Shown: positions 1-12,759 of the stretch, piece after piece | Position numbering within the stretch: position 1 is the stretch's first letter | Layout: every line of letters starts with the position of its first letter | Source of the DNA: Nitrospirae bacterium GWB2_47_37 | Lineage (GTDB): Bacteria > Nitrospirota > Thermodesulfovibrionia > Thermodesulfovibrionales > Dissulfurispiraceae | Assembly: GCA_001803635.1 (NCBI GenBank) | Contig: MHDU01000045.1 | Coordinates: 1 to 62,221 of the forward strand | DNA: 62,221 nucleotides | Reading direction: 5' to 3' | Notes under the pieces: model-generated | Seen by the model: only the letters and a program-made list of their open reading frames with translations | Databases searched by the model: none | Told to the model about the DNA's origin: nothing | Made by a program: the position numbers and the translations under genes

Positions 1-37
1 TTCCTATAGCTTGGAAAAACACGGCAGGAGAGATAAC

Positions 38-436
38 ATGCAAAAACTATTGAACGTATTCAAGGCGCTTTCCGACGAGACGAGGCTCAGAATACTGAAG
101 CTCCTCGAAAACGGAGAACTTTGCGTATGCGACATCGTGGCCGCCCTCGGCATGATTCAGCCCAAAGTCTCGTTCCATTTAGGAGTAATGAAAGACGCGG
201 GATTGATAAAAGACCGCAAGCAGGGCAGGTGGATACATTACCGCATCGACGATTCCGATATATTCAAACGCCTCATCCTCATCTCGGCTCTGGAACGCAT
301 TCCTGAAACCGCGATAGCGGAGGACAGAAAAAAACTCAGAAAATTTTTAAAGGATAAAAATGAAAAACGGGGCATGAAATCCAAAACCGAATCGTCCGCG
401 TGCCTTTGCGGAAAAGAGGGAGACAGGCAATGTTAA
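38..436 (+). CDS. arsR: ArsR-family arsenic-responsive repressor
   Basis: Winged-helix ArsR/SmtB repressor of 132 aa that would release the ars operator when arsenite binds. The helix-turn-helix and wing region reads through ALGMIQPKVSFHLGVMKDAG, and the metalloid-binding pair sits in the family motif ELCVCD (Cys-x-Cys at the start of the recognition region). The ATG at 38 is preferred over an in-frame TTG at 11 because AGGAG lies seven bases before it. It is the first gene seen of a tight operon and overlaps arsC by seven bases, so translation is probably coupled. The promoter lies at or beyond the window edge. Function from family and neighbours is very likely. Confidence 0.93.
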   Translation: MQKLLNVFKALSDETRLRILKLLENGELCVCDIVAALGMIQPKVSFHLGVMKDAGLIKDRKQGRWIHYRIDDSDIFKRLILISALERIPETAIAEDRKKLRKFLKDKNEKRGMKSKTESSACLCGKEGDRQC

Positions 437-852
437 AGGTCATGTTCCTGTGCACGGGCAATTCATGCAGGAGCCAGATGGCCGAGGGGTTTGCGAGGGA
501 AATCGGAAAGGGTATTATCGAACCTTACAGCGCCGGGCTTATTGCAGCCGGAGTTAATAAAAGGGCAATAGCCGTTATGAAGGAAATCGGAATAGACATT
601 TCCAAACAGAAATCCGAAGAGATAGACGAAGAGCTTCTCGGGAATATGGATATTATCATCACCCTTTGCGGCCACGCAGAGGCTTCATGCCCTTTGACTC
701 CGCCGCATATCAGGCGCCGCCACTGGCCTATCGACGACCCGGTAGAAACTATAGGCGCAGAGGAAGAAATAATGCGCGAGTTCAGAAGGGCAAGGGACGA
801 GATAAAGGGAAAAATAACTGATTTTATAACAGAGGCAAAAAAGGAGGCTTAG
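430..852 (+). CDS. arsC: Arsenate reductase, low-molecular-weight phosphatase type
   Basis: Reduces arsenate to arsenite in the cytoplasm, probably with thioredoxin. The 140 aa protein starts with the phosphatase P-loop CTGNSCRS (C-x5-R-S). The second redox pair, LCGHAEASC, has the C-x6-C spacing of the pI258-type ArsC family, which separates true arsenate reductases from ordinary tyrosine phosphatases. The start at 430 is chosen because the protein then begins directly at the beta strand before the P-loop and a GAGGGAG ribosome site precedes it. It overlaps arsR and is four bases from arsD. Confidence 0.93.
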   Translation: MLKVMFLCTGNSCRSQMAEGFAREIGKGIIEPYSAGLIAAGVNKRAIAVMKEIGIDISKQKSEEIDEELLGNMDIIITLCGHAEASCPLTPPHIRRRHWPIDDPVETIGAEEEIMREFRRARDEIKGKITDFITEAKKEA

Positions 853-856
853 GGCA

Positions 857-1195
857 ATGAAAGTCGAAATTTACGATCCCGCCATGTGCTGTCCAACCGG
901 GCTTTGCGGGCCTGCTATAGACCCGGCGCTGGTCAAAATTAGCGACGCAGTGCTTGCCTTAAAAAAACAGGGGGTCGAAGTTCAGCGGTTCAGCCTCGCG
1001 CAGCAGACCAAGGCGTTTATGGATAACAAAAAAGTGGCGGATCTGCTCCATAATAACGGCAAGAAGGCTCTGCCGGTCATTATAGTCAACGGCGAAGTGT
1101 TAAAAACGGGAGCGTATCCTTCATACGAGGAACTATGCAATGCGCTCGGCATAGAGCCGCTGAAGGCAAAGCCGATTTCATTGCAGATGAAATGA
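857..1195 (+). CDS. arsD: ArsD arsenite metallochaperone
   Basis: Delivers arsenite to the ArsA ATPase. The N-terminal metalloid site is complete: Cys11, Cys12 and Cys17 in DPAMCCPTGLCG correspond to the essential Cys12/13/18 set of the family. At 112 aa it ends before the vicinal cysteine pairs found near the C terminus of the plasmid R773 protein, which are dispensable for chaperone activity there. It lies between arsC and arsA with one to four bases between genes, the usual arsDA order. Confidence 0.93.
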   Translation: MKVEIYDPAMCCPTGLCGPAIDPALVKISDAVLALKKQGVEVQRFSLAQQTKAFMDNKKVADLLHNNGKKALPVIIVNGEVLKTGAYPSYEELCNALGIEPLKAKPISLQMK

Positions 1196-1196
1196 G

Positions 1197-3002
1197 ATGA
1201 CAAAATACATATTCTTTTCGGGCAAGGGCGGCGTGGGCAAAACGACTATGGCATGCGCCACAGCGATCTATCACGCAACTGAGGGCAAAAAAACATTGAT
1301 AGTGACGACTGACCCTGCTTCCAATCTTGCAGATGTGTTTGAGCAGGAGATCGGGCATAAGATAACGCCGATCAACGGCATCGCAAATCTTTATGCTATG
1401 GAGATAGACCCTGATGAGGCGACGCGGGAATATAAAGAGCGCATTATATGCCCTTTCAGGGAGGTGATGCCCGCGGACGTGATCGCCTCGCTCGAAGAGA
1501 ACCTGAGCGGCCCTTGCACTACGGAGATGGCTTCATTCGACAGGTTCATAGATTTTATGGAAGGCGACGAGTACGATGTGATTGTTTTCGATACCGCCCC
1601 AACAGGGCACACAATAAGGCTTCTTGAACTTCCTGTGGACTGGTCGAAACATATTGAAGAATCGGCAAAGGGGAGCGGACAGACATGTCTCGGCCCGGTT
1701 CAGACCATTCAGGAATCAAAAGACAAATACGACAGGGCAACCGCTTTATTGAAAGACCCTCAGAGGACGACTTTTATATTCGTTATGAGACCGGAAGACC
1801 TCTCTCTCTACGAAACAATTAGGGCCTCAAAGGAGCTTGAAACCATAGGCATAAAATCGGGAGAGATAATAATAAACGGCATTCTGCCGGAAGATGTCTG
1901 CGAAATAAATTTTTTCAGGAAGAAATACGAAGCCCAGCAAAAAATAATAAAAGAAACGGAAAGCGCGATAGAAAAGCCGAAGCGGTATATGTTTTTAAGA
2001 GACAATGAGGTAAAGGGGATCGACGCGTTGAAGGGTGTTGCGGAAGAATTGTTCAAAGGCGTAAAACCAAAATTCGGCATAAAGGGCGAGCCGCCGGAGC
2101 GATCCCAACCTGCCCTTGAAATGCCCGACATAAACAGCCTGTGGCTTCCCGGGAAACAAACAAAGGCATTATTCTTCACCGGTAAGGGCGGCGTGGGCAA
2201 AACAACCGTATCGTGCATTGCAGCTCTTTATACCGCTCAAAAAGGTTTTAAGACCCTTCTCGTAACAACAGATCCCGCGGCGCATATAGGAGAAGTGCTT
2301 GACGTTAAAATCGGCAGCAGACCCGTAAGTATAACCGAAAACCTATACGCCGTAATGGTAGATCAGGAAGAAGCGTTCAGGGAATATAAAGAAGGGGTTT
2401 TAAACGACGCGCGCGGCAAATACTCGGAAGACATGCTCGCCGCAATGGAAGAGGAACTCAATTCTCCCTGCACGGAAGAGATGGCTGCCTTTGACAAGTT
2501 CATTCAGTATATAGAAGGCAGAGATTATGAAGTAGTTGTATTCGATACCGCTCCCACTGGCCACACCTTAAGACTCCTTGACCTTCCCTTCGATTACGCA
2601 AAACAGGTGGAGATGATGGTTTCCGCTGCGGAAAGCGCGGAAGTGAAAGAGACCGCCCGGAGCAGATTTGCGGAGATAATAGAAATATTGAAAGATAAAA
2701 ACCGCACTATCTTCAGCCTTGTGCTTTACCCTGAATCGACGCCTATTATGGAATCATACCGCGCCATGCTCGATTTAAAAGATGCCGGGATACATACGCA
2801 GCTTGTGGTCGCAAATATGATATTGCCTGAAGAAGTATGCACGAATGATTTTTTTAGAAACAGAAGGCGGATGCAGATGAGGTATTTGAAAGAGATTGCC
2901 TACAAGTTCAAACTGCCGGCGCTTCAAATCCCTTTAACTCAGGACGAAATAAAAGGGCTTCGTTCCCTGAACTCCGTTCTGAAAATTATATTGTATAGCT
3001 GA
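1197..3002 (+). CDS. arsA: ArsA arsenite-transporting ATPase (two-domain)
   Basis: Soluble ATPase that energises an arsenite efflux pump. The 601 aa chain is an internal duplication: each half has a deviant Walker A GKGGVGKT (residues ~9-16 and ~327-334) and the signal-transduction motif DTAPTGHT. The three metalloid-binding cysteines known from the R773 enzyme are all present: Cys107 (SGPCTTEM), Cys164 (GQTCLGP) and Cys425 (NSPCTEEM). No ArsB or Acr3 pump is visible downstream, so the partner must lie upstream of the window or elsewhere. This is the last gene of the operon; a weak hairpin follows. Confidence 0.95.
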   Translation: MTKYIFFSGKGGVGKTTMACATAIYHATEGKKTLIVTTDPASNLADVFEQEIGHKITPINGIANLYAMEIDPDEATREYKERIICPFREVMPADVIASLEENLSGPCTTEMASFDRFIDFMEGDEYDVIVFDTAPTGHTIRLLELPVDWSKHIEESAKGSGQTCLGPVQTIQESKDKYDRATALLKDPQRTTFIFVMRPEDLSLYETIRASKELETIGIKSGEIIINGILPEDVCEINFFRKKYEAQQKIIKETESAIEKPKRYMFLRDNEVKGIDALKGVAEELFKGVKPKFGIKGEPPERSQPALEMPDINSLWLPGKQTKALFFTGKGGVGKTTVSCIAALYTAQKGFKTLLVTTDPAAHIGEVLDVKIGSRPVSITENLYAVMVDQEEAFREYKEGVLNDARGKYSEDMLAAMEEELNSPCTEEMAAFDKFIQYIEGRDYEVVVFDTAPTGHTLRLLDLPFDYAKQVEMMVSAAESAEVKETARSRFAEIIEILKDKNRTIFSLVLYPESTPIMESYRAMLDLKDAGIHTQLVVANMILPEEVCTNDFFRNRRRMQMRYLKEIAYKFKLPALQIPLTQDEIKGLRSLNSVLKIILYS

Positions 3003-4291: not shown

Positions 4292-5797
4292 TCATGAAAT
4301 CTTCTCTTTATCCAGCGCCTGCCTCACCCTTTTTAAAAGCACGTCGGGAGATACCGGTTTGGGAATGAACTCCATCCCCTCTTCAAAAACTCCCTTCTTG
4401 TGGATAATATCTGCCGTATATCCGCTCATAAAAAGCGCCTTTATGCCCGGGTTTATTTCCTTTATCTCTTCATACGCTGCCTTGCCGTCCTTCTTCGGCA
4501 TTATCACATCGAAGAGGAGAAGCCGAACCGTGTCTTTATTCTCAGTGAATTTATTCACCGCATCTTCGCCGTCAACGGCCTCTATAATTTTATATCCGAA
4601 CTTCTCAAGCACTTTCTTCGCGAGTTCTCTTACCTCGACGTCATCCTCGGATACGAGTATCGTTTCGGAGCCGCCTTTTATCTCCGCTGTTTGAACCGTC
4701 TTTTCGAGCTGCGTTTCCGCATCCCTTCCTATTAGAGGCAGATATATCATAAACGTCGCGCCCTTTCCGGGCTCGCTGTAAACGGAGACATAGCCGTTAT
4801 GCTGCCGGATGCTGCCGTATGCCGTGGCCAGCCCCAGACCGGTGCCCTTGCCGACCTCCTTTGTGGTGAAGAACGGCTCGAATATTTTTCCCCTTGTTTC
4901 CTCGTCCATGCCGACTCCGGTATCCGATACCGACACAAAGGCATACTTTCCGGGCTTTCCATATCCGTGCGCCTTCATATAACTTTCGTCAAGCTCGGCA
5001 AGGCCGGTCTCTATGGTCAGAATGCCGCCGTCCGGCATCGCGTCCCGCGCATTCGTAACGAAATTCATCAGCACCTGCTCTATCTGCCCCCCATCGGCCA
5101 TTACCGTAAGTTCTTCGTCCGCAACGTCTACCCTGAACTCTATGTCCTCGCTTATCAGCCTTGAAAGCATCTTTTTTATCCCGCGTATTATGTCATTGAC
5201 GTTAACCGGCTTCAGGCTCATTATCTGCTTCCTGCTGAAGGCTAAAAGGCTGTTCACAAGATGAGCCGCCTTTTCCGCGGAACTAAGTACCTCTTTGATA
5301 TACGGGCTGCCGGGGTCGTCTTCCTGCATCTTCATCTGCAAGAGATTGGCATAGCCTATTATCGTAGTCAGTATGTTATTGAAGTCATGCGCGACGCCTC
5401 CCGCCAGAGTGCCGACAGCTTCCATCTTTTGAGCGTGGCGAAGTTGTTCCTCCAGCCCGCGCTGTTCTTCTTCGCGGCGTTTAAGCTCGGCCTGAGATTT
5501 TTCAAGCTCCACAACCCGATGCTCAAGCTCCTCGTTAAGTACGCAGATCTTTTCGCCTGTTTTTAGCGCATCCTCTTTTGAACGATATATTTTTTTAGTA
5601 TAGCCGGAGATAAGACTATGAAGCACTACCGCGGTAATTGCAACGTAAAACCATCCCTTGTAAGTTTGGAATAATGTAAGGGTTTCATGGTCTTCTATCA
5701 TTTTAGCCAGCAATGTATCCGAAAGAAAAATCCACATCCCACCTACGACAGCGTAAATCAACACGATCTTTAGTGGAATCAGGTTATCCCTTTTCAT
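4292..5797 (-). CDS. Membrane hybrid histidine kinase with C-terminal receiver
   Basis: A 501 aa sensor kinase. Two transmembrane helices (~8-28 and ~48-66) enclose a periplasmic loop of only about 20 residues. A coiled coil follows, then a HisKA domain with the phospho-acceptor in GGVAHDFNNILTTI, an HATPase domain (N box NFVTNARDAM, G boxes DTGVGM and GTGLGLA) and a receiver domain (~375-495) with the acceptor Asp in LLFDVIMPKKDG. It precedes the substrate-binding-type sensor gene on the same strand, and transcription would start in the intergenic region near 5.8 kb. The ligand is unknown. Confidence 0.88.
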   Translation of the reverse strand: MKRDNLIPLKIVLIYAVVGGMWIFLSDTLLAKMIEDHETLTLFQTYKGWFYVAITAVVLHSLISGYTKKIYRSKEDALKTGEKICVLNEELEHRVVELEKSQAELKRREEEQRGLEEQLRHAQKMEAVGTLAGGVAHDFNNILTTIIGYANLLQMKMQEDDPGSPYIKEVLSSAEKAAHLVNSLLAFSRKQIMSLKPVNVNDIIRGIKKMLSRLISEDIEFRVDVADEELTVMADGGQIEQVLMNFVTNARDAMPDGGILTIETGLAELDESYMKAHGYGKPGKYAFVSVSDTGVGMDEETRGKIFEPFFTTKEVGKGTGLGLATAYGSIRQHNGYVSVYSEPGKGATFMIYLPLIGRDAETQLEKTVQTAEIKGGSETILVSEDDVEVRELAKKVLEKFGYKIIEAVDGEDAVNKFTENKDTVRLLLFDVIMPKKDGKAAYEEIKEINPGIKALFMSGYTADIIHKKGVFEEGMEFIPKPVSPDVLLKRVRQALDKEKIS

Positions 5798-6002: not shown

Positions 6003-6020
6003 TTGGCATAGTAATTGCTT
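6003..6020 (+). promoter_or_regulatory. Sigma54-like -24/-12 promoter
   Basis: TTGGCATAGTAATTGCTT matches the sigma54 consensus TGGCAC-N5-TTGCW, with GG at 6005-6006 and GC at 6017-6018, exactly twelve bases apart. Only the C of the -24 box differs. It points at the envelope operon that starts at 6100. The window encodes two sigma54-type activators. Confidence 0.6.
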
Positions 6021-6032
6021 CAACTGTAACGG

Positions 6033-6061
6033 TTGACAGTCGCCATTTTTGGTGCTATATA
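6033..6061 (+). promoter_or_regulatory. Sigma70-like promoter of envelope operon
   Basis: TTGACA at 6033-6038 and TATATA at 6056-6061 are separated by exactly 17 bases, giving a strong housekeeping-type promoter about 35 bases before the ATG at 6100. The -35 box overlaps an inverted repeat TCAAC/GTTGA (6020-6036), which could be an operator. Confidence 0.6.
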
Positions 6062-6099
6062 TCAGACAAGAGGATCATTTCCGGCTCAAGGAGGCATGT

Positions 6100-6552
6100 A
6101 TGAGAACAAAAAGGATCGTAGGATTGGCAGTAACGGTAATATTTCTTTTGACCGCGTCGGCAGCCATAGCAGCATGGCATGGGTATCGCGGAAGCGGCGG
6201 ATGGGGCATGGGAACCCAGTATCAGAGAATGTATAATCCCGCAGCAGCAGAAACCCTTTCAGGAACGGTCGAAGCGGTGGATAAAATCACACCCATGAAA
6301 GGAATGTACTCCGGCGTCCATATAACGCTTAAAACAGACAAGGAGACTATTTCCGTCCATCTGGGCCCTGAATGGTATATCGAAAGGCTCGACACCAAAA
6401 TTGAGAAAGGCGATAAAATCGAGGTCAAGGGTTCGAGGGTAACATTTGCGGGCAAGCCGGCAATAATAGCGGCAGAGGTCAAGAAGGGCGATAATGTCCT
6501 GATTCTCAGAGACAAGGCAGGCATTCCCGCATGGTCAGGGTGGAGAAGGTAG
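6100..6552 (+). CDS. Secreted small protein, OB-fold-like
   Basis: A 150 aa protein with a clear signal peptide (MRTKRIVGLA through AAIAA), so it is probably periplasmic. The mature part is rich in beta strands. The pattern LSGTVEAVDKI ... GPEWYIERLDTKIEKGDKIEVKGSRV resembles small periplasmic OB-fold-type domains of unknown function. The start at 6100 is set by the GGAGG just upstream and by the signal peptide. It leads the operon that continues with an ABC transporter and probably shares its promoters, though a hairpin follows the gene. The precise role is unknown. Confidence 0.72.
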   Translation: MRTKRIVGLAVTVIFLLTASAAIAAWHGYRGSGGWGMGTQYQRMYNPAAAETLSGTVEAVDKITPMKGMYSGVHITLKTDKETISVHLGPEWYIERLDTKIEKGDKIEVKGSRVTFAGKPAIIAAEVKKGDNVLILRDKAGIPAWSGWRR

Positions 6553-6577
6553 AATTAGTCGAAACGCAGAAAAAATA

Positions 6578-6605
6578 GGCCCTGCCTTGAGCCGGAGGCA
6601 GGGCT
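6578..6605 (+). terminator. Intra-operon hairpin (attenuator or processing site)
   Basis: Nine perfect base pairs (6579-6587 with 6596-6604, GCCCTGCCT and its complement) with an eight-base loop lie between the secreted-protein gene and the ABC ATPase gene. There is no T-run after it, so partial termination or an mRNA-stability element is more likely than full termination. Confidence 0.5.
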
Positions 6606-6623
6606 GTTAAAAAGGAGACAGCC

Positions 6624-7328
6624 ATGTCATTAATAGCTGCGGAAAATATTCAAAAGGATTACAAAACAGGCGAAGTAACCGTTAAGGCATTAAAGGGGCT
6701 GAGCTTTGAAATAGCTCCCGCGTCTTTTGTCTCTTTCGTAGGCCCTTCGGGCAGCGGAAAGACCACTCTCTTAAACATCATCGGGTGCCTTGATAAGCCC
6801 ACAATAGGTTCATTAACAGTAGCGGATACCGATGTCCTGCATCTTGACAGAAAGCAGAGCGCATCATTCAGGGGCAGTAACATAGGTTTTATATTTCAGG
6901 ATTTCAATCTTATCCCCGTGCTTACCGTTTATGAAAATATTGAATATCCTTTGCTTATGGTACAGAACACACCCGCTTCAGAAAGGAAGAAAAGAGTCAC
7001 AGCCCTCCTTGATGCTGTAGGTATGATTGACCAGAAAGATAAATATCCCGACCAGATCTCCGGAGGGCAAAAGCAGAGAGTTGCTGTTGCAAGGGCATTG
7101 GTCACAAATCCCAAGCTTGTTCTTGCGGATGAGCCGACCGCAAACCTTGATCACAAGACAGCTTATATGGTTATCGACCTCATGAAGAAGATGAGGGACG
7201 AGTTTAAGACCACCTTTATCTTCTCCACACACGACCAGAAGATAGTCGGAGAGGCGGAAATACTCTACACGCTTGAAGACGGTGAATTGATCGGCAGGCA
7301 GGCCAAAGGAGGCAAAGGCAATGGGTAA
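6624..7328 (+). CDS. ABC transporter ATP-binding protein (LolD/MacB type)
   Basis: A 234 aa cytoplasmic ATPase of the family that powers FtsX-type permeases. Walker A GPSGSGKTT (~39-47), Q-loop FIFQDFNLIPVLTVYENIEYP, signature ISGGQKQRVAVARAL, Walker B LVLADEPTANLD and the H-loop STHD are all intact. It overlaps the permease gene by eight bases. LolD-like in sequence, but its neighbours do not include a second lolC/lolE-type permease, so it may serve a dedicated mechanotransmission or lipoprotein-release complex rather than general lipoprotein export. Confidence 0.92.
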   Translation: MSLIAAENIQKDYKTGEVTVKALKGLSFEIAPASFVSFVGPSGSGKTTLLNIIGCLDKPTIGSLTVADTDVLHLDRKQSASFRGSNIGFIFQDFNLIPVLTVYENIEYPLLMVQNTPASERKKRVTALLDAVGMIDQKDKYPDQISGGQKQRVAVARALVTNPKLVLADEPTANLDHKTAYMVIDLMKKMRDEFKTTFIFSTHDQKIVGEAEILYTLEDGELIGRQAKGGKGNG

Positions 7329-8559
7329 TCTCTTTAAAATAGCGATAAGAAACCTCTTGAGATATAAAAGAAGGACATTGCTTACCGCTTCGTTAATAAC
7401 GATCGGCGTTGTATTTGTCCTTGTGTTCATTTCCGTTTCAGGCTCGTTCAAGAACATGATGATAGGGCAGATAACGGATTCATATATGGGACACCTGCAA
7501 GTGCACCGGAAAGGTTATGTCGCATCCATAGATAACCTTCCCCTCAACCTCAATCTGAAGGCAAGTACCATTGCACGACTCGAAAACATCCTCGATAAAC
7601 AGCCGGAAATAGAGGCATACTCGCCGAGGATAAAGTTCGGAGGCATGTTCAGCAACTTTGTTGAGACCACCAATATCAGACTGGTAGCTGTTTATCCCGA
7701 CAGGGAATTCAGGACAGTCCCGCTTCTCCCGTTAAGGATAACGAGCGGAGGGAAGACCCTTAACAGGGGAGAAATCCTTATACCCGATCTCCTTGCAAAG
7801 GGCATGAAAGTGAATATTGGAGACATGGTCGTAATTGTCGCGACCAATGTGGACGGCTCGGTGAACGGGAAGCAGTTCAAGGTCGCCGGTATCGTCGAAG
7901 GAATAACCGGGCCAGGAGGCAGGGATGGGTATATCCATATCGAGGATGCAGCGGAACTCCTTAGGATGGAGAAAATGGAGATTAGCGAATTTGCAATACG
8001 GCTTAAAGATTTCGGCAAGCTCGGCAAATTCAGCGAAAAACTGGATGGCCTTCTTTCAAAGGAACTCAACCAGCAGAACAAACCCATATTTGAACTGCAC
8101 ACATGGGAAAAACTCTCGCCCTTCTTCAACATAGCCAAGATGATAGATGTGATGACGTTTTTCATAAAACTTATGCTAATAGCCATAGTTCTCATCAGCA
8201 TCATGAATGTGATGATAATGGCGGTGTATGAGAGAATACGCGAAATAGGCACGATCGCCGCAATAGGAACTCTGCCAAGTAGGATATTGAACATGTTCGT
8301 GATCGAGGGTTTCTGCCTCGGAATTGCAGGAACAATTATCGGCAATATCGCCGGCATCGTTATCATTTTCACCCTCAATATGATGAAGATGACTTATAAT
8401 TTCGGACAGCAGAAGGGACTTATACTTCAAGCGAATATTAATCCGGCGGATATTCTCGTCATATCGGTAACCGTAATAATCGTCTCGGTCTTAGCCAGTC
8501 TCCAGCCCGCGTTCAAGGCGTCGCGCATGGAGCCGATCAAGGCACTGAGGCACATATAA
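7321..8559 (+). CDS. FtsX-like ABC permease (MacB/LolC type)
   Basis: A 412 aa inner-membrane permease with the topology of the family: a first helix (~19-40), a large periplasmic domain (~41-280) and three C-terminal helices (~282-312, ~328-358, ~376-398). It ends with the family motif around LASLQPAFKASRMEPIKALRHI. It probably forms a homodimer with two copies of the upstream ATPase. Fourteen bases separate it from the LolA-like gene. Confidence 0.9.
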   Translation: MGNLFKIAIRNLLRYKRRTLLTASLITIGVVFVLVFISVSGSFKNMMIGQITDSYMGHLQVHRKGYVASIDNLPLNLNLKASTIARLENILDKQPEIEAYSPRIKFGGMFSNFVETTNIRLVAVYPDREFRTVPLLPLRITSGGKTLNRGEILIPDLLAKGMKVNIGDMVVIVATNVDGSVNGKQFKVAGIVEGITGPGGRDGYIHIEDAAELLRMEKMEISEFAIRLKDFGKLGKFSEKLDGLLSKELNQQNKPIFELHTWEKLSPFFNIAKMIDVMTFFIKLMLIAIVLISIMNVMIMAVYERIREIGTIAAIGTLPSRILNMFVIEGFCLGIAGTIIGNIAGIVIIFTLNMMKMTYNFGQQKGLILQANINPADILVISVTVIIVSVLASLQPAFKASRMEPIKALRHI

Positions 8560-8572
8560 AAAGGAGACGGAA

Positions 8573-9301
8573 ATGCTTAAAATAATCGGGTTCATCCTCA
8601 CATTAATAATCGCTATGCCGGTTTATGCAATAGACGGAGCAGCGCTTTTGAAGCAGGTGGACAGGAACCTCAGCCCCGAGTCGTACGAGTCTTATAGAAA
8701 ACTCATCAACATAGAGCCGGACGGCAGGAAAAAAGAGTTTACCCTGTTCACCGCAAAAAAAGGGATGGACAAGGTTGCGTCCCTATTTCTCGCTCCCGCA
8801 AGCGAGAAAGGCCGGAGCACTCTGCGACTCGGCGACAATATGTGGCTTTACATCCCCAATGTAGGCAAGCCGGTCAGGATAACAAGCCTCCAGTCCGTAG
8901 TCGGAGGGGTATTCAACAATGCCGACATCCTACAGCTTGATTATGCCGCCGAATACAATGTAGAAAAGGTTGAGGAAAAGGGAAACGAATATCTCCTTTA
9001 CCTGAAGGCAAAGACAAAAACCGTAGCCTATGACAGGCTGAAGGTATGGGCCGACAAAGGGAAAAAGCTCCCGACAAAGATTGAGTGCCTGACAGAGGCG
9101 AATATGCTTATTAAGACTCTCTATTTCAAGGATATTAAAGATTTCGGAGGCGGGATCGTGAGGCCGGCGGTTATAGAGACCGACAGCCCGCTTTACAAGG
9201 GATATAAATCGGTGATGATATTCGCCGGAATCAAGGAGAGAAAATTCAAGGACGAGGTCTTCACCCTGACCTTTATGCCGAATTTAGAGTCGTTGAGATG
9301 A
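8573..9301 (+). CDS. Outer-membrane lipoprotein-sorting protein-like (LolA fold)
   Basis: A 242 aa secreted protein with a signal peptide ending near PVYAIDG. It matches the pattern of the COG2834-type outer membrane lipoprotein-sorting proteins: an unclosed beta barrel with segments such as LWLYIPNVGKPVRI-like strands and DRLKVWADKGKKLPTKIE. Proteins of this kind are often encoded beside FtsX- or MMPL-type exporters and presumably carry a hydrophobic cargo across the periplasm. A ribosome site AAGGAG precedes the ATG. Confidence 0.8.
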   Translation: MLKIIGFILTLIIAMPVYAIDGAALLKQVDRNLSPESYESYRKLINIEPDGRKKEFTLFTAKKGMDKVASLFLAPASEKGRSTLRLGDNMWLYIPNVGKPVRITSLQSVVGGVFNNADILQLDYAAEYNVEKVEEKGNEYLLYLKAKTKTVAYDRLKVWADKGKKLPTKIECLTEANMLIKTLYFKDIKDFGGGIVRPAVIETDSPLYKGYKSVMIFAGIKERKFKDEVFTLTFMPNLESLR

Positions 9302-9307
9302 CATTAA

Positions 9308-11470
9308 ATGATTAAGAAGCGGGTCTTTATAACACATAGGGACTGTCCCTATTTACGGACGAAACGAAGCGGAGTCGTAGAATGGGGACTGTCCCCTGCG
9401 CTGATAATCGCAATTTTCATATTCGCATCTTCAGCCCGCGCGGAAGAGAGCAGACCCGCTTCTTTGCCCGAATACAACCTCAGCGTCTCCTTTGATATTG
9501 CCGGCTCAAAAATTACCGGAATGGCGGACATAAATGCGCGCGCCGGTCGGGAACTGACGGTGCATACGGGAGACCTGAAAGTTCTCGATGTCCATATCGG
9601 AGATAGGCAAATTAATATAAACATAAAAAATGATCAGTTCAGGATAACACCCGAAACCGATGCGATCGTAACTATAAAATATGAGGCTGTATTTAAAGAT
9701 TCGAAAACGAATATTATCGGCAAAAAAGGCGTAATACTCAGAGGCACGTGGTATCCGCTTGTGGAAGGCATGTTCGTTTACAGCCTGAAAGCGGCTCTCC
9801 CTGACGGACACATCGCCATTTCAGAGGCTGAAAAGATCACAATGGATAAAAGGGGCGACACTGCACATTTTGCCTTTGACTTTCCCTATCCCCTTAATGA
9901 CGAGGACGGAATATCGCTGATCGCCTCTAAGAATTTTGTCGTCTCAAAGGACACTTATAACGGCATAGAAATAGTCGCATACCTCTTACCCGAAGAGGCG
10001 CATTTCGCAAAGACATTTATTGAGCATACAAAACGCTATCTGAAAACCTATGAAAAACTCCTCGGCAGCTATCCCTATAAAAGACTTTCCATTGTTGAGC
10101 ATTTTCAGCAAGCGGGCTATTCCATGCCTACGTATATCTTCCTCGGCAGGGAGGATTTCAAGCTGCCTATAGAGGAAACACCGTTGGGACATGAGATCGT
10201 TCACCAGTGGTTCGGCAATTATGTCTATACCGATTATGACAAGGGGAACTGGAACGAAGGGCTGACAATATATTTTGCAGACCATTCTTATAAAGAGCAG
10301 AAAGACAGAGGATGGAAATGCAGGAGACGGATACTCTCCGGATTTAAAAGCCATGTGAAGGATAAAAAAGAATTCCCCCTTAGAGAGTTTTCAGAGCGGT
10401 ATGATTCGGCATCGAGGTCTATCGGATACGGCAAGGCGGCAATGGTAGTGCATATGCTCAGAAAAATGACGGGTGATAAATTATTCTATGCCTCAATAAG
10501 AGATTTCATAAAGGGAAATAGGTTCAGGGTTGCCGCATGGGACGACATTAAAATCGTTTTTGAGAAAAGTACGGCTAAAGACCTGTCGTGGTTTTTTAAT
10601 CAATGGATAGATAAGAAAGGGACGCCTGAGCTTTCAATGGACAATATCGGCATCAACAAGGCACAAAAGCGGTTCAGCATAAATTTTGATATTATTCAGA
10701 AAAAAACCGAATTCAAATTACCGATACCGGTGGCATTTTATTCAAGGGGTAAAAAAACAACCCGAATTTTTACCCTTGATAAAGAGCGTGAAAGATTCAG
10801 CATTATCCTGCCGGAAAGACCGGACGAGATCGTCATTGATGAAGACTATGATCTTTTCAGGGCATTATCCGTCGATGAAGACCCTCCCACGCTTGAGCGA
10901 CTTGCCTCGGATGAAAACAAATCCATCATTCTGCCTGCTGATCGTAAAGACAGGTATAGAGAAATCATAGATGTCTTTAATGAAAAGGGCGAGAGAATAA
11001 AGTTAGCTTACCTTAAATCCGGTTATCCTCCTCGCAAAGGTCATGTTGAGAATGAAAAGAAGCGGCGCCCCGGTTTTTTAACTAAAAATGGTGAACGGAA
11101 AAAACGGTTCTTTTCAAAAGAGATGACAGAGATAAACGATGAGGCGATGAAGGCTTCATCCATCGTCGTGCTCGGCATGGATAATCCCGTTATTAATAAA
11201 TTATTCGGTAAAACAGAATTCACAAAGGATTACGGCAGCCTGCTGCGCGTGGACATAAAAAAGAATCCCCTCAATCCTGAAAAGGTTGTGGTGGTAGTCA
11301 ATATTTCAGACAATACTTCCGGACGGCAAAAGGCGGTCCCTGCGTTTGAGCAAATCTTTGAATATCCGTTTTACAGCAATTATTATTTAAAAGACGGACA
11401 GATAATAAAGGAATTAAAAGAAACACCGAGGGGTATTAGAATAAACCCGGATTACAGGACAATGAAATGA
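9308..11470 (+). CDS. Secreted M1-family metallopeptidase-like protein
   Basis: A 720 aa exported protein with a gluzincin zinc site: HEIVH from about residue 295, followed after 17 residues by the Glu of WNEGL (classic M1 peptidases have 18). An N-terminal beta domain precedes it and a helical or beta C-terminal part follows. The N terminus is unusual: 21 or so residues (~11-31) are encoded by a REP-like palindrome (9339-9396), and the hydrophobic core of the signal peptide only starts after it. No ATG, GTG or TTG start lies between the palindrome and the hydrophobic core, so the ATG at 9308 is needed for export. Its stop overlaps the next gene (ATGA). Confidence 0.82.
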   Translation: MIKKRVFITHRDCPYLRTKRSGVVEWGLSPALIIAIFIFASSARAEESRPASLPEYNLSVSFDIAGSKITGMADINARAGRELTVHTGDLKVLDVHIGDRQININIKNDQFRITPETDAIVTIKYEAVFKDSKTNIIGKKGVILRGTWYPLVEGMFVYSLKAALPDGHIAISEAEKITMDKRGDTAHFAFDFPYPLNDEDGISLIASKNFVVSKDTYNGIEIVAYLLPEEAHFAKTFIEHTKRYLKTYEKLLGSYPYKRLSIVEHFQQAGYSMPTYIFLGREDFKLPIEETPLGHEIVHQWFGNYVYTDYDKGNWNEGLTIYFADHSYKEQKDRGWKCRRRILSGFKSHVKDKKEFPLREFSERYDSASRSIGYGKAAMVVHMLRKMTGDKLFYASIRDFIKGNRFRVAAWDDIKIVFEKSTAKDLSWFFNQWIDKKGTPELSMDNIGINKAQKRFSINFDIIQKKTEFKLPIPVAFYSRGKKTTRIFTLDKERERFSIILPERPDEIVIDEDYDLFRALSVDEDPPTLERLASDENKSIILPADRKDRYREIIDVFNEKGERIKLAYLKSGYPPRKGHVENEKKRRPGFLTKNGERKKRFFSKEMTEINDEAMKASSIVVLGMDNPVINKLFGKTEFTKDYGSLLRVDIKKNPLNPEKVVVVVNISDNTSGRQKAVPAFEQIFEYPFYSNYYLKDGQIIKELKETPRGIRINPDYRTMK
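9339..9396 (-). repeat. REP-like palindromic element inside the peptidase gene
   Basis: GGGACTGTCCC at 9339-9349 and GGGGACTGTCCCC at 9384-9396 flank an inner imperfect stem with arms around TTTACGGAC and GTCGTAGAA. In reverse complement it matches the element at 62032-62081, including the two GGGACAGTCCC boxes and the inner TCTACG ... CCGTAA stem. It sits in frame in the 5' end of a coding sequence. Confidence 0.85.
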
Positions 11471-12759
11471 AACGTCTATTTTTAGCCCTGTTGTTTATAA
11501 TCGGTTTCACCGCCCTTGTACGCGCGGAAGAATACACCTTTGACATATCCGAGATAGAAAAAAAGCCCTATCACATAGGCGGCTATGCCGAATTTAAACC
11601 TGTATTTTTCGGGCTGGATAAGAAGGCATCTCTTTTTAAGCTGAAGTTTTACAACCGTGACGAAGGGGCAACTCTTGAAGAGTATAATTCCACATTGCAG
11701 TTAGAGGGAAGTTTACAGAAGGGCATTGCGGGCCTTTTTATAAAGACGAATACGGATTATAAAAAATCATACCTCGGCGAAGATCAGCAGACAACGATTT
11801 ATGACGGATTTCTTTCATTAAAGCCTTCGTCATCGCTGACAATAGATCTCGGCAAGAAAACCCTGAAATGGGGCAAAGGATATGCGTGGAATCCTACGGC
11901 CTTTGTGGACAGGCCGAAAGACCCGGACGAACCGGAGCAGAGCATGGAAGGATTTATCTTGGCATCGGCGGATTACATAAAAAGCTTTGACGGCGCGCTC
12001 AAAACCGTTTCGTTTACGCCTGTCCTGATCCCTGTTTACAACCACATGAACAATACCTTCGGGGACATAAACAAGCTGAATTTCGCGGGAAAGCTCTACT
12101 TTCTTTTTTACGACACCGACATTGATTTCATCATCTTTACGGGCGGAAGCAAGACAACGAGATACGGCGCGGATTTTTCAAGAAATATCACCCCGAATTT
12201 TGAGATACACGGCGAGTTTTCATTCATAAACGACTACAAAAAGAAATTCATCGACGGCAATGGAAACAGCTTTGAAAAAGAGTACGATGCAAAAAACTAT
12301 CTGATAGGGATTCGTTATCTCACGGAAAAAGACACAACTTATATATTTGAATATTACAGGAATGGTACGGGCTTTAGCTCCGGCGAAATGAGGGATTATT
12401 TTTCGTTCATCAACAAGGGCTATGATTCGTACATCTCGACAGGCAGCGCAACTCTCATTAAGAAGGCTTTAACCCTTACGGAAGGCAATTACGGCAAACC
12501 GAATCCTACGAGGGATTACATTTACCTCCGCGTAAGTCAGAAAGAGCCGTTCGACATGCTTTATTTCACGCCTTCGGCTACTGTGATATTGAATGCAGCC
12601 GATAAGAGCTTCTCTCTCTCTCCGGAATTGTCGTATACCGGAATCACAAATTTAGAATTGCGGGTTAAGGCCGCTTTTATATCGGGAGAGCGGCTGACCG
12701 AATACGGAGAAAAGCAGAATGATTACAGGACGGAACTAAGGGCAAGGTATTATTTTTAA
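11467..12759 (+). CDS. Outer-membrane beta-barrel protein
   Basis: A 430 aa protein with a signal peptide (MKRLFLALLFIIGFTALVRA) followed by alternating amphipathic strands with many aromatic and glycine residues, and a chain ending in the aromatic ELRARYYF, which fits a terminal barrel strand. A stretch LKWGKGYAWNPTAFVDRPKD resembles porin-like proteins of DUF1302-type families, but I do not assign it to a named family with certainty. It is the last gene of the envelope operon and overlaps the peptidase stop. It converges with the HNH gene (four-base overlap). Confidence 0.8.
   Translation: MKRLFLALLFIIGFTALVRAEEYTFDISEIEKKPYHIGGYAEFKPVFFGLDKKASLFKLKFYNRDEGATLEEYNSTLQLEGSLQKGIAGLFIKTNTDYKKSYLGEDQQTTIYDGFLSLKPSSSLTIDLGKKTLKWGKGYAWNPTAFVDRPKDPDEPEQSMEGFILASADYIKSFDGALKTVSFTPVLIPVYNHMNNTFGDINKLNFAGKLYFLFYDTDIDFIIFTGGSKTTRYGADFSRNITPNFEIHGEFSFINDYKKKFIDGNGNSFEKEYDAKNYLIGIRYLTEKDTTYIFEYYRNGTGFSSGEMRDYFSFINKGYDSYISTGSATLIKKALTLTEGNYGKPNPTRDYIYLRVSQKEPFDMLYFTPSATVILNAADKSFSLSPELSYTGITNLELRVKAAFISGERLTEYGEKQNDYRTELRARYYF

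Follow-up and report, generated by a model that had tools for sequence, protein, structure and literature searches.

Gene content of the locus

We analysed a set of six adjacent genes at positions 6003–12759 of contig MHDU01000045.1 from Nitrospirae bacterium GWB2_47_37; the window is the whole stretch of 62,221 nucleotides. The genes encode a small secreted OB-like protein, the ATPase and permease of an ATP-binding cassette (ABC) transporter, a LolA-like periplasmic carrier, an M1-like metallopeptidase and an outer-membrane barrel (Table 1). A sequence-only reading of this DNA had described them as a tightly packed envelope system behind a sigma54-like promoter, with parts for the inner membrane, periplasm and outer membrane. 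All six genes were found contiguous: 71 bp separate the OB and ATPase genes, the ATPase and permease genes overlap by 8 bp, the carrier gene follows the permease gene after 13 bp and the M1 gene follows the carrier gene after 6 bp, and the M1 and barrel genes overlap by 4 bp. The multi-part envelope system was likewise borne out. Profile searches assigned the ATPase to ABC_tran (E 7e-34), the permease to FtsX (E 1e-15) and MacB_PCD, the M1-like protein to Peptidase_M1 (E 7.5e-15) and the carrier to PF17131, LolA_like (E 2e-39; 135.6 bits, exceeding the gathering score of 30). The carrier has a signal peptide without a lipobox Cys. No family matched the barrel in the Pfam search, and the OB-like protein gave no convincing family, its weak match being to MamS (OB-type; NCBIfam, E 8e-4).

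Table 1. Positions of the genes and other elements in the window.
Feature	Position	Strand	Basis or remark
arsR	11–436		ars operon
arsC-like gene	400–852		ars operon
arsD	857–1195		ars operon
arsA	1197–3002		ars operon
Kinase	4292–5797		
Sigma54-type -24/-12 element of the OB gene	6003–6019	+	12/14 consensus; TTGGCATAGTAATTGCT
Ribosome-binding leader of the OB gene	6080–6093		CCGGCUCAAGGAGG
OB-like protein, small, secreted	6100–6552	+	ORF (open reading frame) call; local neighbour, not module core
Conserved hairpin between the OB and ATPase genes	6579–6604	+	fold z -2.7
Block missing at the G001 site	6611–12755 (6.1 kb)	+	window–L164 alignment
LolD/MacB-type ABC ATPase, core gene 1	6624–7328	+	ABC_tran match
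FtsX/MacB/LolE-type (type VII) ABC permease, core gene 2	7321–8559	+	FtsX and MacB_PCD
LolA-like soluble periplasmic carrier, core gene 3	8573–9301	+	PF17131
M1-like metallopeptidase, junction addition in this genome	9308–11470	+	Peptidase_M1
Dispersed 58-bp repeat, in-frame insertion in the M1 signal-peptide region	9339–9396	+	22 genome copies
Outer-membrane barrel, 18 strands, OprD/AlgE-type fold, core gene 4	11467–12759	+	AF2 (AlphaFold2) model

A conserved four-gene core

To define which genes belong together, the reference genomes were searched with the barrel, which returned 339 relatives, and 80 of these 339 loci were examined; each neighbouring gene was scored only at loci whose contig was long enough to test for it. 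The LolA-like gene adjoined the barrel gene in 76 of 78 testable loci, the permease gene lay beside it in 64/67, and the ATPase gene accompanied the barrel module in 59/61. ATPase, permease, LolA_like and barrel genes followed each other in unchanged order at about 60 of the 80 loci, in several phyla. In contrast, the OB gene was present at 6/38 testable barrel loci and the M1 peptidase gene at none of 62. The conserved unit is thus ATPase, permease, LolA-like carrier and barrel; the OB and M1 genes are local neighbours. The six families proposed as one system were not found together elsewhere, whereas the four-family core is strongly co-conserved, and the six-gene set was rejected as the conserved unit on the OB and M1 counts.

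That all six genes nevertheless work as one system, with the OB protein and the peptidase as functional parts, would fit their tight packing with overlaps, the five or six loci, in Nitrospirota only, with the OB gene ahead of the module, and the M1 relatives found near OB in G030 and G025 (directly after OB in the latter). We consider it very unlikely, since besides the counts above the OB gene is common without the module, occurring at high identity in many module-free relatives of the order, and since the place of the M1 gene is taken in other genomes by a chromate transporter or a hybrid kinase gene (see below).

The module was found in Nitrospirota, many Deltaproteobacteria, Planctomycetota, Omnitrophota, Auribacterota and one Aminicenantes bin, at ~48–90% identity. 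Mean pairwise identity was 73% for the ATPase, 70% for the permease, 75% for the carrier and 58% for the barrel. Pairwise distances of the four core proteins mirrored each other (r 0.57–0.74), and phyla were intermixed in places in the tree. A close version was present in just 4 of 60 genomes of the window's order. The four core genes therefore look like a patchily held, transferable module that moves between phyla, because it occurs across phyla yet is carried by only 11 of 295 Nitrospirota genomes. Single cross-phylum placements are no proof of transfer, as bins can hold foreign contigs. Planctomycetota, and some of the Deltaproteobacteria, have a Nitro_FeMo-Co (PF02579) domain placed between the permease and the carrier (L064, L068, L076, L080, L092 and L054), which is fused to the carrier in Planctomycetota.

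Relation to Lol and other envelope systems

The sequence-only reading had not taken the genes for the standard Lol pathway, and three of the Lol features tested did not hold. The permease scored 128.1 bits against the LolC/E equivalog TIGR02212 (cut-off 362.45), and the ATPase 219.7 bits against the LolD equivalog TIGR02211 (cut-off 307.75), both below the cut-off. PF17131 was the sole match of the carrier at E up to 0.1. Separate LolC/E and LolA genes are present in this genome: a gene on C44 scored 392.9 bits on TIGR02212, and the PF03548 (LolA) match lies on another contig, C73. Standard Lol orthology was rejected on these grounds.

The permease model (AF2; predicted local distance difference test, pLDDT, 81) was closest to LolE/LolC (Z up to 29.6), with MacB next, and the carrier matched the solved LolA-superfamily proteins 3buu, 4z48 and 3bk5. 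The module thus resembles the Lol pathway (LolCDE/LolF, LolA, LolB) in its LolE-like type VII permease fold, LolD-like ATPase and LolA-fold carrier, and differs from it in having a PF17131 rather than a PF03548 carrier, a porin-type barrel in place of LolB and a shortened loop where LolC/LolF carry the hook for LolA. For the barrel, no sequence relative with a solved structure was found; its model (pLDDT 86.7) matched BenF, OprD/Occ, AlgE, chitoporin and Wzi in fold (Z 20–23). Omp85 was not among the listed fold matches, of which BenF, OprD and AlgE were the best. By strand counting on the model, the conserved segment WGKGYAWNP would form part of an extracellular loop.

A comparable layout in the literature is the Borrelia BBJ23–BBJ29 cluster, comprising an ABC ATPase, a single MacB/LolE-like permease, a LolA-like protein and an outer-membrane barrel, for which export of non-polar ligands has been proposed (PMC13078400). 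Its barrel belongs to the Omp85 family and it includes tetratricopeptide repeat (TPR) proteins, whereas in the module described here TPR partners are lacking, the barrel is of the OprD/AlgE type and the hosts span several phyla. The best scores of permease and ATPase falling on LolE/C/F and LolD profiles and structures, together with a similar proposal for the Borrelia cluster, might indicate a second, dedicated Lol-like sorting route, in which the ABC pair would free particular lipoproteins to the carrier and the barrel would insert or surface-expose them in place of LolB. We regard this as rather unlikely: the scores are well under the Lol cut-offs, the hook-equivalent loop is shortened, canonical Lol genes are present in the genome, and the module has no conserved lipoprotein gene.

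The AmeABCDEF monoterpene efflux system of Castellaniella likewise joins an inner-membrane pump, a LolA-superfamily periplasmic protein (DUF1329) and an outer-membrane barrel (DUF1302), but its pump is of the resistance-nodulation-division (RND) type and its carrier and barrel are of other families (PMC6394551). Related layouts occur in the window's own order, as a LolA-like gene with two FtsX genes, an ATPase and a barrel gene (L039, in G035) and as a barrel with a LolA-like gene and an RND gene (L037, in G027). It is possible, with a chance distinctly below even, that the module is an efflux or repair pump acting on hydrophobic toxicants or damaged lipids; the Ame pairing of pump, LolA-superfamily protein and barrel, the RND set of G027 and the stress and metal genes near the module (below) would agree with it. 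However, the module's engine is an ABC and not an RND transporter, none of 65 barrel homologues matched DUF1302 at E up to 0.1, and no genes for metabolism of hydrophobic compounds recur nearby.

MacAB-TolC shares the permease fold and mechanics, but the module's ATPase and permease are two genes and not, as in MacB, fused in a single chain, it has a LolA-like carrier rather than an adaptor, and it lacks a TolC-type tunnel. Since the Borrelia, Ame, G035 and G027 sets have comparable layouts built from other parts, we conclude that transporter, LolA-like carrier and outer-membrane barrel form a layout already known, if little understood, within which the present combination is new. No paper on the four-gene module was found in a literature search that reached few subscription journals.

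Stress and metal genes near the module

Spy/ZraP-type metal-stress chaperone genes immediately preceded the module at 13–16 loci; in the count set against controls they stood at 13/81, a chromate transporter gene was near it in 8/81, and ars genes were near it in 10/81 as well as in the window; each was at 0/20 in control regions. Among 49 other loci with the module, six had a strong sigma54 site upstream (reverse strand, 0), and in at least three of these six it stood just 5' of a Spy/ZraP-type gene preceding the ATPase gene. This arrangement resembles the control of zraP by ZraSR (PMC4987338), a likeness to the sigma54 envelope-stress response that concerns regulatory context alone and a minority of loci, those with a Spy/ZraP-type gene and a strong sigma54 site directly before the module. 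The neighbours are suggestive of a role in envelope or metal(loid) stress.

Proposed mechanism

From these parts we infer how the module would work. A homodimeric type VII ABC exporter, made of the ATPase and the FtsX-type permease, would extract a lipophilic substrate (a lipid, a lipoprotein or another hydrophobic membrane-lodged compound) from the outer leaflet of the inner membrane. The soluble LolA-like carrier would then receive the substrate and bring it to, or through, the OprD/AlgE-type barrel. Envelope or metal(loid) stress would call this route into play, alongside the housekeeping Lol pathway. That the four core genes are a mobile trans-envelope transport module for a lipophilic substrate, a stress-linked accessory to Lol, seems to us probable by a modest degree. 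The fuller claim, an export path that crosses phyla and is yet undescribed, using a type VII ABC transporter with a PF17131 carrier to send a lipophilic or lipoprotein substrate via an 18-stranded porin-type barrel as a transferable envelope/metal(loid) stress module, is offered tentatively, and we would sooner doubt it than assert it as a whole.

Several observations weigh against this proposal. In the periplasmic domain of the permease, the loop equivalent to the LolA hook of LolC/LolF falls ~5 residues short of that in LolF and is modelled as a short hairpin. The barrel's fold is generic and near those of passive porins, so the barrel may receive nothing from the carrier. The metal-gene neighbourhood is only suggestive, covering 12% of loci against a small control set (20 regions). 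Transport might also be retrograde or serve maintenance, with lipids taken back from the outer membrane or its composition adjusted: carrier and barrel could run either way, and nothing found sets the direction. Those type VII ABC transporters that share this fold and whose transport is established (LolCDE, MacB) are, however, exporters or extractors, which counts against retrograde flow and leaves it improbable.

The module bears on how LolA-like carriers outside Lol, among them PF17131 proteins with solved structures, work and on what they pass to the outer membrane. Being compact, with a single engine, carrier and barrel kept at high identity in several phyla, it is a small testable unit, and it may give environmental metal(loid)-resistance islands an envelope arm.

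The site in related genomes

In the same-genus genome G001 (L164), alignment joined window position 6610 straight to 12756, and the ATPase-to-barrel block was absent. The G001 site keeps the sensor kinase, OB gene, promoter, HNH gene, ssb/rpsF genes and NtrC-type regulator, and ars genes lie upstream of OB there and in G007 (L165), as in the window. In G030 just ~46–50 last codons of the barrel gene remain after the OB gene. That G001 and G030 lost the module is no less likely than that the window genome gained it by insertion, since OB stands directly before the ATPase gene in several other Nitrospirota and G030 retains the barrel remnant. At larger scale, the patchy occurrence and cross-phylum identity of the module favour transfer.

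Promoter and hairpin of the OB gene

The OB gene starts at an ATG preceded by AAGGAGG; a TTG at 6049 is an in-frame upstream start only. Both boxes read earlier in its promoter region were located, a sigma54-type site (TTGGCAT-N5-TTGCT, first base exactly 6003) and, downstream of it, a sigma70-like pair (TTGACA-17-TATATA). In 62 kb about one such site would be expected, counting both strands, and this was the only sigma54-type site found in the window. Such sites were present at 9 of 20 OB orthologues against 0.3 expected from shuffles (reverse strand, none), 51–105 bp 5' of OB in G001, G030, G007, G019, G027, G013 and G025, and the box was the sole conserved block across eight divergent OB upstream regions. 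The window genome encodes rpoN. Because the site is kept with OB in genomes that lack the module (G001, G007, G019, G027, G013), and no sigma54 site was found upstream of OB in three loci that have both OB and module (L043, L050, L058), the predicted promoter is that of the OB gene and not of the module. The sigma54-like promoter noted ahead of the six genes is thus a real conserved site, but it belongs to OB, and a stable hairpin stands between it and the ATPase gene; sigma54 control of the module itself was not supported.

The sequence of the hairpin loop, UUGAGCCGG, complements that of the ribosome-binding leader of OB, CCGGCUCAAGGAGG, in the window exactly over 12 nt. Loop and stem were kept in 14 of 20 OB orthologues (L134–L153), the loop being invariant; leader and hairpin co-occurred in these 14 and were largely both absent from the rest. 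Compared by hand, the stems stayed paired despite changes (CCCTGC/GCAGGG, CCCTGT/ACAGGG, CCTTGC/GCAAGG). Leader and loop had changed in concert in G031. A search of the genome for the exact leader motif gave a single occurrence, and an Rfam search with the hairpin matched no family. The hairpin may be a 5'–3' mRNA element of anti-Shine-Dalgarno type, or may be a plain terminator with an unusual loop.

The M1-like peptidase and the carrier/barrel junction

Two close relatives of the M1-like protein were found, 69% identical in G030 and 51% in G025. The zinc motif HEIVH-X17-E was intact in all three M1-like proteins aligned, and the exopeptidase motif GxMEN was absent from all three, AGYS(M/L)P(T/S)Y standing in its place; aminopeptidase activity should therefore not be assumed. 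The M1 protein might serve to trim exported material or to clear it, but the module does without it elsewhere. At the carrier/barrel junction, a chromate transporter (ChrA) gene was found in L034, L049 and L060, and in L051 a hybrid histidine kinase gene whose product is 59% identical to the window kinase. The junction accepts local gene additions, of which the M1 gene is one. The 58-bp repeat in the M1 signal-peptide region occurs 22 times in the genome, in full or in part (C70, C65, C34 and C37 among others), is flanked by GGGACTGTCCC-type palindromes and is missing from both M1 relatives. Separately, a stand-alone M1-like protein of ~1000 aa (L040, G000:C46, and relatives), 46% identical to the M1 protein, is conserved in the family of the window genome.

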